Source: Citrus sinensis
Lineage: Eukaryota; Streptophyta; Magnoliopsida; Sapindales; Rutaceae
NCBI RefSeq assembly: GCF_022201045.2
Contig: NC_068562.1
Coordinates: 7,236,001-7,300,000, forward strand
Reading direction: 5' to 3'
Length of the DNA: 64,000 bases
The notes under the pieces were generated by a model, which ran no database searches, had not been told where the DNA came from, and saw only the letters and a program-made list of their open reading frames with translations. The position numbers and the translations under genes were made by a program. Below are positions 3,196 through 38,528 of this stretch, one piece after another. The number at the start of each line of letters is the position of its first letter. Positions within the stretch are counted from its first letter, which is position 1.

Positions 3196-3389
3196 TTTCT
3201 AGAGAATCATCAATGATATACGCTCTTTGGCCAGTTATTTTATACATATAAAATAGGATCGGGAGTCCCTCTTTTTTGACACAAGAATATACACAAAATT
3301 CTAACCTTTTAACAGCAACCAAATCAATGGATCAAATTAAATGCTGATTTATTTTTTATGAATAACAAAGTAAAATGATTCAAGAGATC

Positions 3390-24059: not shown

Positions 24060-24361
24060 TACAGGACAAGTGAACAGAACAAAATTTTATTCATGGATAA
24101 GACAAGTATTGAAAGCAATGGATACCTCGTACCCCTTTGCTTGGTCTCATTAATCTGTCTAACCTTACTACAAGCCCTGAAACCAGTGAAAGAATTGGTG
24201 ACTTATATCCAAACTGAAGTCCAAGGTTAAATGATAATATCAGAGTTATGTCAGAACAAACATTGCCTGCAACGTATAACGAAGGTAAGATGGTTACACT
24301 TTTAATTGTGCCATTAAAGAAATAGAAAAAAATTTTTAAAAAAAAGGGAATTAAGTTATGC

Positions 24362-24498
24362 CATTGTAGGAGTTCCCGAACTCCAAGAACTACATAAAGT
24401 TCACGGAAACTAACAAACTCCCTGAATAATCAATTTAAGCATTGTTATGTATCCTCTTAGCCCATCAGTATTGGGAAAGGGAGGAGAAAATCAATGCT
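24362..24498 (-). ncRNA. Candidate H/ACA-like snoRNA, copy 1 of array
   Basis: 137 nt on the minus strand. The 5' hairpin is closed by AGCATTG/CAATGCT, with an upper stem TCCTC/GAGGA and CCCA/TGGG. A hinge TAAATTGA follows. The 3' hairpin has outer stem GGAGTT/AACTCC and inner stem GAACT/AGTTC. It ends T-ACA-ATG, an ACA box exactly 3 nt from the end. The hinge fits the H box (ANANNA) except for the last base. Size and layout match plant H/ACA guides, which direct pseudouridylation; no target was identified. Confidence 0.4.
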
Positions 24499-24676
24499 AA
24501 CAATGAAAAGAATATACAAAGATTCCACCAACTTTAATCTAAATACATAGTATTGGGACTAACAAAAGGTCATGCGTCACAGATCATAATAAAAAAAGAA
24601 CTAATATAGAAAGTAAGGGATTTATGCTATTCGTGACGAGATTATTATGCTATATTTCTCCAAACAGAATTTTCTG

Positions 24677-24816
24677 TGATATAAGAGTTCCTGAACTCCA
24701 AGAACTAGATAGAGAGAGTCCTAAGAGACTAACAAAACTCCAACTATTCAATGCAAGCATTTTTCTGGATCCTCATAGCCTACGGGTATTGGGAAAGGGA
24801 GTTGTAGTTCAATGCT
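24677..24816 (-). ncRNA. Candidate H/ACA-like snoRNA, copy 2 of array
   Basis: 140 nt, same two-hairpin design as copy 1, 315 bp further on. The 5' stem AGCATT/AATGCT and the GAGGATCC segment are kept. The tail box is ATA rather than ACA, and the inner 3' stem is GACT/AGTTC. The hinge is GCATTGA. Confidence 0.35.
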
Positions 24817-24982
24817 AACAATAAAAAATTTACAAAGATTCCATAAATTTAGCATGAACACACAATCTCACAACCAAAGTCAAGCACCATGTAACATGGA
24901 TAGAAAAGAAGTGAGGGCATCATCCTACTCGTGAAGAGATAATTTTAGCCGGATTTCTCAAAGAAGATACAGTGAAAATCTG

Positions 24983-25121
24983 CAATATAGGAGTTCCCAA
25001 ACTCCAAGAACTACATAGAAAGTTCAAATAAGCTAACAACATTCCAACTATTCAATATAAGCATTTTTCTGGATCCTCTTATTCCGCCGGTATTGGGAAA
25101 GGGGAGAACTAATTCAATGCT
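24983..25121 (-). ncRNA. Candidate H/ACA-like snoRNA, copy 3 of array
   Basis: 139 nt, 306 bp from copy 2. It keeps AGCATT/AATGCT, the GAGGATCC segment, the hinge ATATTGA and the inner hairpin GAACT/AGTTC. The tail is T-ATA-TTG. Confidence 0.35.
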
Positions 25122-25297
25122 AACAATAAAACTATTTAGAAAGACCTACAAATTTACCCCAAAATACATAATCTCACAATCTATGGAATGGTCATACATC
25201 ACGGAAAATAGATATTAAAAAAAAAAAGCAAAAACTAAGAGCATTATGCTACTCATGAAAATATTATTATGCTAGATTTTTCAGATACGAGGTAGTA

Positions 25298-25437
25298 CAA
25301 TATAGGAGTTCCCAAACATCAAGAACTAGATGGAAAGAGTTCGAAGAGACTAACAATACTGCAATTAGTCAATGTCAGCATCTTTCAGGACCCTCTTAGC
25401 CCACCAGTGTAGGGAATGGAAGTAGTAATTCAATGCT
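25298..25437 (-). ncRNA. Candidate H/ACA-like snoRNA, copy 4 of array
   Basis: 140 nt, 315 bp from copy 3. The 5' stem is AGCAT/ATGCT, the loop segment TGGGCTAAGAGG is as in copy 1, the hinge is ACATTGA, the inner 3' hairpin GAACT/AGTTC, and the tail T-ATA-TTG. The outer 3' stem is weaker. Confidence 0.35.
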
Positions 25438-25731
25438 ACCAATACAAAGATTTGCAAAGGTTCCACAACTTTAAATCAAATCCACAATCAAAGGAAAGGT
25501 CATATCGCTAGCTAATAAAGATATTAATTGCTTAAAGGAAGTATCAACGTGGACGTAAGGACAAAACTATACCAAGAAACTCAAATTCTGAGAACATGCA
25601 AACTTTTGCAGCTAAAACTCAACAGAAAACACTCCAGAAACAACATTGTAGTAGATACAGAAGGCAGTAAAACCGGAAAGTGCTTACAGTTTTTTTCATT
25701 TAACCAGCAAGGTAACTGGTAAAATAACTTG

Positions 25732-25850
25732 ATGTAGGAATCACTAAACTCCAAGAACTTGGTAATTATAAAGTTATAGAGCCTTAAAAACTCCCGACTT
25801 AATATACAAATTGTCAAGTAGACTCTTAAACCAAATAAATTCATTGGTAA
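25732..25850 (-). ncRNA. Degenerate unit of the snoRNA-like array
   Basis: Only the 3' half is clear: GGGAGTT, CCAAGTTCTTGGAGT and a T-ACA-TCA tail. The 5' hairpin is eroded. Spacing from copy 4 is about 430 bp. Probably a dead copy. Confidence 0.3.
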
Positions 25851-25855
25851 GATCG

Positions 25856-26003
25856 GCAGAAAAACTTGATCAATTCTAGTAGAGCTACACTAATCCAACC
25901 CTGTTAACAAGTTTTGTTCCAGATAAGAAAGGCAGAAAAGCTTGATCAATTCTAGCAGAACTACACTAATACAGCCTGATAACAAGTTTATGTTCCAGTA
26001 CAC
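25856..26003. repeat. 76-bp tandem duplication
   Basis: Two copies of a unit of about 76 bp containing CTTGATCAATTCTAG, CTACACTAAT and TAACAAGTTT, starting near 25856 and 25932, about 90% alike. It sits between the degenerate unit and the last full unit of the snoRNA-like array, so local slippage or unequal exchange has been active here. Confidence 0.8.
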
Positions 26004-26317
26004 GAAACCTACAAAATAAAAGTGATTCCCAGTTGGGAACTGAGGAGAGTTGTCGCAATGGCACATGGGAATATTATTCTTATTCTTTCTAGCCTCCAAA
26101 ATTGAACATGAAAGATCTGAAAATGGGATAAAACCTTTCCCACCTGAATATCTTGGTAATGCCAAGTAGCAAGGTATGTCTCAGCCAAGAAAACTGTATC
26201 GCATGAACGGTAGATCATTGCATGAGGTAAATCAAGCGCATCTGTCCATAGATTTATGCATCAAAAGGAATTTTAAAAAGGAACTACTTATGAAGGGAAA
26301 CCAAATAGGATATAGTG

Positions 26318-26455
26318 CAATGTAGGAGTTATCGAACTCCATCGAAATAAAAATAGTTCCCAAGAGAGTACAAAACTCCAAATGTTCAATCTAAGCATTG
26401 ATTCTGGATCCTCTAAGCCCATCATTAATGGGAAAGGGAGGAGTAATTCAATGCT
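26318..26455 (-). ncRNA. Candidate H/ACA-like snoRNA, last copy of array
   Basis: 138 nt on the minus strand and the best-formed copy with copy 1. Stem AGCATTG/CAATGCT, upper stem TCCTC/GAGGA plus CCCA/TGGG, hinge AGATTGA, 3' hairpin GGAGTT/AACTCC enclosing GAACT/AGTTC, tail T-ACA-TTG. From the base of the upper 5' stem to the hinge is about 16 nt, the distance expected between a pseudouridylation pocket and the H box. Confidence 0.4.
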
Positions 26456-27233
26456 AACCATTAAAACTTTTTCACACGCAAGCAATAGGTTCCGCAAATT
26501 CAGCCCGAATATCATAATAAAACAATCAAGGAAAATGTCATCATATACAGCAAGCTAGATGCTAAGCATACCCCAAAAGCAAAAAAAAAAAAAAAAAATT
26601 CTAAAGCTCCAATTTCATGTATGAATCCATCAACATAAATTACATCTAGATGAACTACTGCAAGTAACTTGATCTATAAACTTCAATAAAGAACACAGCC
26701 ATAAAGAAAACCAATATAATAATTAAAAAAAATCAAAAGCCCATTTGAAAGAACACAAAAACCCTTTAAAAAAAATAACGAATTAAGAGCCGCGGCCACA
26801 ATAATAAGAGCAACAATCTTTTTTACTGACCTTCCAAAACCTCCTTCATCTCCAACCCATAACATAACACATCAACCAAAAAGAAATGAATGGATAAATA
26901 AAAATTCACATATTTGGCCTATGTAAGTGTGTTTGACAAAATATGGATTGAAGGCTGATGATCGGGCTCGGATTGGTTTAGTAGCCGAGAAAAAAAAATC
27001 AGAAAAATTTAGATAAAAGAGAAAAGAGAAGAAGCAAGGAGCTTCTAAAGTCTTACCCTGTCTAAACAGTTGACACGGCTTTGCTGTAAAGTGGGACCAG
27101 ATTGTAGAACAACTTTTAGAAGTCAAGATGATAACAAAACTCACCGTTTCAAGGCAGGATAAGGACTAAATTTTCAATTCATAATAATCCGATTCTGGTC
27201 ACTACTCTTCGGTAGGGTTTTAGTCTAATGCCA
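26456..27233 (-). other. Possible start region of a minus-strand noncoding transcript
   Basis: No protein-like frame is convincing. On the minus strand GTTTAGACAG followed by GGTAAGAC (near 27055) is a good donor-like site, and pyrimidine-rich DNA follows it. This may be the first exon of a host RNA running through the snoRNA-like array. This is inference only. A poly-A run lies at 26581-26598. Confidence 0.25.
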
Positions 27234-33260: not shown

Positions 33261-33605
33261 CTACCCGGATCTAATTCTCTTCTGACTAGCTTTTCCTTCG
33301 GATTTTAATGTGGCAGCCGATTCCCCTTCCGATGAAGCCTCCATTGACCTTGTGAAAGAGTTTGAGAGATCAGCATAGAGATTGACAACCCTTCTGATGT
33401 TGTTGTTAAGCTCTTTGATCAAACCAACATTTCGCGTCAAGTTATCAGGGACCTTTGACTCATGGTTTTGATTAATCTCATTGATTAGCAACCTGTTTTG
33501 ATCTAAAATATCTTGAACTTGTCCAAAACTCTTTTGAAATATTTGCAAGATTTTATCATCCACCTGTGCATCATAGCCGGCGCTTGAAAATATATCCCCT
33601 TCCAT
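33261..33605 (-). CDS. ELF4-L: ELF4-like protein, copy 1
   Basis: Single coding exon, 114 aa, DUF1313/ELF4 family. Conserved centre: QKSFGQVQDILDQNRLLINE, INQNHESK, DNLTRNVGLIKELNNNI, RRVVNLYADLS. ELF4 is part of the evening complex with ELF3 and LUX in the circadian clock; ELF4-like proteins are its small helical relatives, and this sequence is closest to the ELF4-L2/L4 type. The start is the ATG before EGDIF, since in-frame codons upstream have no ATG. A 5'UTR intron runs from 34994 to 33645 (donor CGCAG/GTATGC, acceptor GTGCAG/GAATAA). The second copy lies 4.7 kb to the right. Confidence 0.95.
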   Translation of the reverse strand: MEGDIFSSAGYDAQVDDKILQIFQKSFGQVQDILDQNRLLINEINQNHESKVPDNLTRNVGLIKELNNNIRRVVNLYADLSNSFTRSMEASSEGESAATLKSEGKASQKRIRSG

Positions 33606-33644
33606 TTCAAGTTTACTTCTTCTCAATAAACAGCAGACTTATTC

Positions 33645-37990: not shown

Positions 37991-38320
37991 CTACCCAGAT
38001 CTAATTCTCTTTTGACTAGCTTTTCCAGCCGATTCGTCTTCTAATGAACCCTCCACTGATCTCGAGAAAGAGGTAGAGAGATCGGCGTAGAGATTGACAA
38101 CTCTTCTGATATTGTTGTTGAGCTCTTTGATCAAACCAACATTTCGTGTCAAGTTGTCGGGGATCTTTGATTCGTGGTTTTGGTTAATCTCATTGATTAG
38201 CAGCCTGTTTTGGTCTAAAATATCTTGAACCTGCCCAAAACTCCTTTGAAATGTTTGCATCACTCTACCATTCACTTGTGTGCCATTGTTGCCTATGCCT
38301 GAAAATATATCCCCTTCCAT
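37991..38320 (-). CDS. ELF4-L: ELF4-like protein, copy 2
   Basis: Single coding exon, 109 aa. The central domain is almost identical to copy 1 (QRSFGQVQDILDQNRLL, NHESKIPDNLTRNVGLIKEL, RRVVNLYADLS). The N-terminal linker and the acidic region near the C-terminus differ and are shorter by about five residues. Both end in KRIRSG. A 5'UTR intron runs from 39153 to 38349, in the same place as in copy 1. The frame is intact, so both copies may work; differences in the flanks could give different expression. Confidence 0.95.
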   Translation of the reverse strand: MEGDIFSGIGNNGTQVNGRVMQTFQRSFGQVQDILDQNRLLINEINQNHESKIPDNLTRNVGLIKELNNNIRRVVNLYADLSTSFSRSVEGSLEDESAGKASQKRIRSG

Positions 38321-38348
38321 TTCAATTATCACAATATTCTCCTGTTTC

Positions 38349-38528
38349 CTGCATCAATCACCCCCAGTCAGTACGCCTATTTTGGTGGGTGCCTATAATT
38401 TTATCTCATCTCTAAACATACTCATTACAATAAAGAAACTCAAATGCATACTTCAAAGCCCACAAATCATTGAGCTAGCATAATTGGTTGCTGAAAGAAA
38501 AAAACACTTTTACACCTTAATCAAGCAT

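Follow-up and report, generated by a model that had tools for sequence, protein, structure and literature searches.

A short array of tandem repeats on contig 7 raised the question of what kind of RNA its units might encode. It had been proposed that the units are H/ACA snoRNAs read from the minus strand, and this was followed up computationally within the 64,000-nt stretch of DNA analysed (the window). The array is probably a tandemly duplicated cluster of minus-strand H/ACA snoRNAs, in which the unit u6 would be an intact guide with a predicted 18S pseudouridine at about U850.

Layout and limits of the array

Table 1 Array, units and associated elements (positions in the window)
Feature	Position	Strand	Remarks
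Array	24362..26456	minus	window is contig 7, 7.236-7.300 Mb
Unit u1	24362..24499 (138 nt)	minus	hinge AAATTGA, ACA box; good fold, pocket without 18S-site match
Unit u2	24677..24817 (141 nt)	minus	hinge GCATTGA, ATA box; non-H/ACA fold; guide match mostly gone
Unit u3	24983..25122 (140 nt)	minus	hinge ATATTGA, ATA box
Unit u4	25298..25438 (141 nt)	minus	hinge ACATTGA, ATA box
Unit u5, eroded	25730..25878	minus	ACA kept and strict ANANNA (ATATTA)
Unit u6	26318..26456 (139 nt)	minus	best H/ACA candidate; nearest presumed promoter
u6 hinge AGATTGA	26386..26392	minus	H box of ANANNNA form
u6 ACA box	26321..26323	minus	3 nt from end
u6 5' hairpin, left guide strand ATTACTCC	26440..26447	minus	8/8 pairs with GGAGUAAU of L029 18S
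u6 5' hairpin, right guide strand TCCAGAA	26402..26408	minus	6/7 pairs with UUCGGGA of L029 18S
Telo-box AAACCCTA, possible promoter element	27213..27220	minus	upstream of u6, weak
Site II TGGGCT, possible promoter element	26738..26743	minus	upstream of u6, weak

The array is real. Its five well-kept units measure 138-141 nt, and together with an eroded sixth they lie head to tail on the minus strand; number and direction agree with the original prediction, which gave lengths of 137-140 nt. The starts of u1 to u4 are 315, 306 and 315 bp apart, in agreement with the 306-315 bp claimed for four of the units (Table 1). Pairwise identity among the five good units is 67-81%, and u5 was recovered with E 4.4e-5 by a covariance model made from the other five. 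The 5' part of u5 is overlapped by a 76-bp tandem duplication at 25848-25998 (86% matches).

The five good units were aligned with 60 nt of flanking sequence on each side and the mean pairwise identity was calculated. The core reached 0.74, the 5' flank 0.54 and the 3' flank 0.39. Taken over the whole repeat, the core value of 0.74 compares with 0.46 for the spacer. The 5' edge of conservation lies about 9 nt before TAGCATT. At the 3' edge, which lies at ACA/ATA plus about 3 nt, identity is 0.83 in the CCTACA block and then 0.48 and 0.11 in the following 6-column blocks. The sharp drop after ACA+3 is where an H/ACA RNA would end.

Genome DNA (300 Mb, 11 contigs) was searched with two queries, u2 at a limit of E 0.001 and u6 at a limit of E 10, by a type of search that skips very common words. 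Each query gave four matches, all inside the array, which is therefore not a dispersed transposon; the original prediction had named a known transposon family as the finding that would speak against it, and only array copies were returned. We regard it as extremely improbable that the units are a transposable element, a foldback element or a microRNA precursor. Short inverted repeats occur in every unit and there are weak Rfam matches to MIR390 and MIR397, but the searches just described returned array copies only, the two microRNA matches reach 17.4 and 13 bits where the gathering scores are 77 and 55, and the folds contain no long perfect duplex. Exact-pattern searches for homologues present as plant contamination gave no match in genome contigs and none in viral contigs.

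Boxes and folding on the two strands

On the minus strand the hinge reads ANATTGA in four of the five good units (u1, u3, u4 and u6), as had been noticed originally, so that the ANANNNA form is found at one common place in these four. The strict H box, ANANNA, occurs in none of the five good units and is present in the eroded u5. This mismatch had been considered the main weakness of the H/ACA assignment; ANATTGA nevertheless fits ANANNNA, which the available text of PMC12218528 reports as a valid H box, with ANANNRA as the plant consensus and AUA among the accepted variants of ACA. The box 3 nt from the end is ACA in u1 and u6 and ATA in u2, u3 and u4, exactly as claimed, and ACA also in u5. 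If the units are H/ACA RNAs, these observations suggest that snoRNA searches relying on strict ANANNA and ACA boxes can miss plant H/ACA genes.

Free folding of the minus strand gave hairpin, hinge, hairpin and tail in just two units, u1 (z -2.8) and u6 (z -3.0). The 5' hairpin is kept in u3 (z -0.6), and u2 (z +0.9) and u4 (z +0.2) adopt other folds that are no better than those of shuffled sequences. The two-hairpin fold ascribed to every unit was thus recovered in u1 and u6, by half in u3, and not in u2 and u4. The plus strand folds at least as well, with z values of -4.1 (u1), +1.0 (u2), -1.8 (u3), +0.1 (u4) and -3.5 (u6), and RNAalifold compared with column shuffles gave z -2.45 for the minus and -3.2 for the plus strand; folding therefore does not pick the strand.

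Covariation across the array copies, proposed originally as a check, was absent: none of the 26 pairs of the H/ACA structure is changed on both sides within the array, and 11 of them never vary among the units. Although 87.4% of 127 cells can pair, against 37-51% in slid versions, the structure was derived from these same sequences. The argument that structure is better conserved than sequence accordingly fails for lack of covariation. A hand-made H/ACA descriptor matched 21 minus-strand and 16 plus-strand loci in the window, where three shuffles gave 14-15 for each strand. Among the units it matched u1 only; it is unspecific. As there is no covariation and both strands fold, structure by itself cannot establish the class or the strand.

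It is distinctly unlikely that the units instead encode some other kind of structured non-coding RNA, perhaps one read from the plus strand, with a resemblance to H/ACA RNAs only in the hairpins. The alifold z of -3.2 and the unit values of u1 and u6 on the plus strand would suit such an RNA, as would the A-ACA tail found there in u1, u2 and u3. The same holds for the strongest H/ACA match over u6 in lax Rfam scans, TtnuHACA9, which is on the plus strand (19.9 bits, E 0.35). The plus-strand hinges, however, are scattered (ANANNA occurs only in u3 and ANANNNA only in u1, and the two do not share a place), compared with four of five at one place on the minus strand. In addition, the top pocket score on the plus strand, 12.4 among 39 pockets with guessed boxes, is about equal to the mean maximum of 12.25 that minus-strand pockets gave in simulations (see below).

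The u6 pocket and the 18S site

When opened, the 5' pockets of u1, u3, u4 and u6 consist of a stem, a left strand of 8-9 nt, an upper stem and a right strand of 7-8 nt, at a cost of 2.0-4.3 kcal/mol. The distance from the 5' pocket to the hinge is 15 nt in u1-u4 and 16 nt in u6, the latter being the value of about 16 nt given originally for the last unit; both lie within the 14-16 nt range of box H/ACA RNAs. For the 3' hairpin of u6 the free fold gives a spacing of about 12 nt, which becomes 14 nt only with two base pairs opened. No significant target of a 3' hairpin was found in the rRNAs used, a plant-like 18S and non-plant LSUs.

The 18S used for comparison was L029 (NZ_CP050525.1, 1-1764), a plant-like contaminant record rather than the plant's own 18S, and the LSUs were non-plant ones from contaminated bacterial and archaeal assemblies. 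The u6 pocket forms 14 of 15 Watson-Crick pairs around a uridine at position 840 of L029, in UUCGGGA-U-C-GGAGUAAU, 16 nt from the hinge. At the same uridine u3 forms 12 Watson-Crick pairs and one G-U of 15, and u4, with a slightly shifted pocket, 12 and two G-U of 15. U840 is the top 18S match for these three units, which share ancestry; its score was equalled by shuffled 18S in 31 of 250 cases for u3 and in 0 of 250 for both u4 and u6. Neither u1 nor u2 has a guide match at this site, although in an exploratory target scan U840 ranked second for u2 under one guide setting. Against three non-plant SSUs u6 scored only 8.6-9.0. A u1 target at position 3376 of the LSU in contig L022 was considered and rejected: none of 30 shuffles equalled its score, but u1 yielded no passing pocket with that left arm.

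The chance level was estimated from 9,167 random rRNAs of 5,970 nt (first-order Markov) and 72 minus-strand pockets. A score of 14 was reached in 47 of the 9,167 by any of the 72 pockets and in 3 by the u6 pocket itself. A looser score was reached in 20 of 6,163 simulated rRNAs by u6 and in 38 of 6,163 by u4, and permuted u6 arms reached it against the 18S 16 times in 19,739. The real LSUs, all non-plant, gave maxima of 11.8-12.0 with minus-strand and 11.4-12.4 with plus-strand pockets, against the simulated mean maximum of 12.25. In a reverse-complement control with one LSU u4 scored 13.7, near its real value of 14.2. Since 22 hand-set guides had been tried before the pockets were scored, these p values are optimistic, and we would put the real family-wise chance at perhaps 1-3%.

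The position of the site was estimated by comparison with Arabidopsis. We take psi 761/762 of Arabidopsis to be L029 751/752; with this anchor U840 corresponds to about U850 in Arabidopsis numbering, and other anchors give 849-853. Pseudouridines 761 and 762 are reported for Arabidopsis 18S in PMC8351944, and U850 is unnamed in the available main text of that paper. A literature search for U850 together with 18S and snoRNA found no paper.

In the plant's own assembly only a decayed rDNA copy was found (L011, C3:52282500-52292000; partial SSU, 5.8S and partial LSU), and a piece of the L029 18S gave no match to the genome. The decayed copy retains the target U and GAGTAATGATT. The proposed guide role presupposes the same site in the plant's own 18S. 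Many of the differences in this copy look like C-to-T and G-to-A changes.

The record L029 is filed as an Acinetobacter baumannii plasmid and yet contains an 18S rRNA that we take to be plant-like. Its end resembles a sequencing adapter, and the record is probably an artefact. Eukaryotic LSU rRNA was also seen in all eight bacterial-labelled contigs scanned (L015, L017, L018, L022, L023, L024, L026 and L028), with SSU too in four of them, and this rRNA is contamination of public assemblies.

The H/ACA assignment thus gains from the hinge variant, the edge at ACA+3, the confinement to the array and the match of u6 to 18S in canonical geometry. It is only partly supported because there is no covariation, because u2 and u4 have no H/ACA fold, because u6 alone joins fold, boxes and guide, and because the 3' hairpin of u6 has a 14-nt spacing only with two pairs opened. 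It is fairly unlikely, in our judgement, that the array is made up of pseudogenes, that is, locally duplicated copies of an ancient RNA gene, of H/ACA type or otherwise, all decaying without function, the 18S match being a relic or due to chance. The shuffle-like folds of u2 and u4, the erosion of u5, the missing guide match in u1 and u2 and the lack of covariation all fit such decay. On the other hand, the identity of 74% in the core against 46% in the spacer, with its sharp edge at ACA+3, points to past or present selection, and fold, boxes and guide have been kept together in u6.

If the array is an H/ACA cluster, the units would each be cut from a longer precursor, and the dyskerin complex would bind them through the hinge H box, in its ANANNNA form, and the ACA/AUA box. 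The bound RNAs would then act as pseudouridylation guides, the 5' hairpin of u6 pairing with both sides of the 18S uridine (L029 840) and so leading to its conversion to pseudouridine. Units u3 and u4 would be weaker versions of this guide, the target of u1 may have been lost or changed, and u2 and u5 may be decaying. The cluster would then illustrate how guide RNAs arise and decay at a single locus, with one intact guide, two weakened, one folded without a known target and two decaying. It would also predict an 18S pseudouridine at a site for which three non-plant eukaryotes have no match.

Known H/ACA RNAs and local context

Rfam release 15 detected no family in the window at gathering score, and a tRNA search found no tRNA there; the cluster, if real, would be a new H/ACA family absent from that release at threshold. 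The likeness to SNORA13 and snoR83 consists of weak, in-register covariance-model matches on the minus strand, seen in lax scans and far below gathering. SNORA13 (RF00396) matched over u1 and u6 with 19.7 and 13.6 bits (gathering 53), and snoR83 (RF01227) over u6 with 16.3 bits (gathering 40), with E values of 0.86-4.9; the SNORA13 match over u1 is no longer reported if the stretch begins at 24361. The lax scans give chance-level matches of several classes. The units may also bear a resemblance to U4 snRNA and to the target of the miR482 family.

Among plant H/ACA RNAs the closest parallels are PRP38-HACA, MPCRibo-HACA and EIF3G1&2-HACA, described in the available text of PMC12218528, which like the array have an unusual H box, stated as ANANNRA for PRP38-HACA, and an ACA box that shows some variation at the C. 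Those motifs are, according to the same text, intronic in named protein genes, covarying and found in 49-102 species, whereas the array is a local tandem repeat without covariation in one genome. Polycistronic plant snoRNA clusters, as presented in the accessible parts of PMC4660826 and PMC5122169, resemble the array in that their units are co-oriented, and the former reports a Telo-box and Site II upstream of such clusters. Both elements may be present upstream of u6 (Table 1). The array differs from those clusters in that all its units are copies of one type and its promoter elements are weak: the two co-occur in 6.4% of the 1-kb segments of the window, and Site II is found also inside u1, u4 and u6.

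The site of u6 recalls snR30/U17, an H/ACA RNA that pairs near expansion segment 6 of 18S through the basal side of its 3'-hairpin pocket, as the available portions of PMC7601244 and PMC9176245 describe. The right arm of u6 pairs with L029 833-839, adjoining an rm2-like UGGCCU at 828-833. Unlike snR30/U17, u6 has no m1/m2-like motifs and would use its 5' hairpin and the distal pocket, as an ordinary guide does. Identity with snR30/U17 was rejected: TATTCC, TATCCC, AAACCA, AGGCCA and GGCCAA are absent from all six units, the plant forms of m1 and m2 having been deduced from the compensatory rule. According to the accessible text of PMC8351944, snR30/U17 could not be identified in Arabidopsis as of 2021. 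It is very improbable that the array encodes a plant-specific H/ACA RNA acting at the edge of expansion segment 6, next to the counterpart of rm2, and partly replacing snR30/U17, with tandem duplication continuing to yield guide variants for this site.

Just upstream of u6 a C/D-like stretch (ATGATGA ... CTGA, 26495-26550, minus strand) with weak lax Rfam C/D matches was noticed. A C/D snoRNA in this spacer (C box at 26544) was rejected, as rRNA complementarity at its D box does not exceed 8 nt. The genes of the window include Pfam Myb and Elf4 domains, and we take them to be TRF-like and ELF4-like, a plant-like gene content. The array lies in the interval bounded by the Myb-domain gene and the ELF4-like genes. 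The two ELF4-domain genes are themselves in tandem on the minus strand, at 33261-33638 and 37991-38353, about 4.7 kb apart (PF07011, E 3.1e-39 and 4.9e-39).
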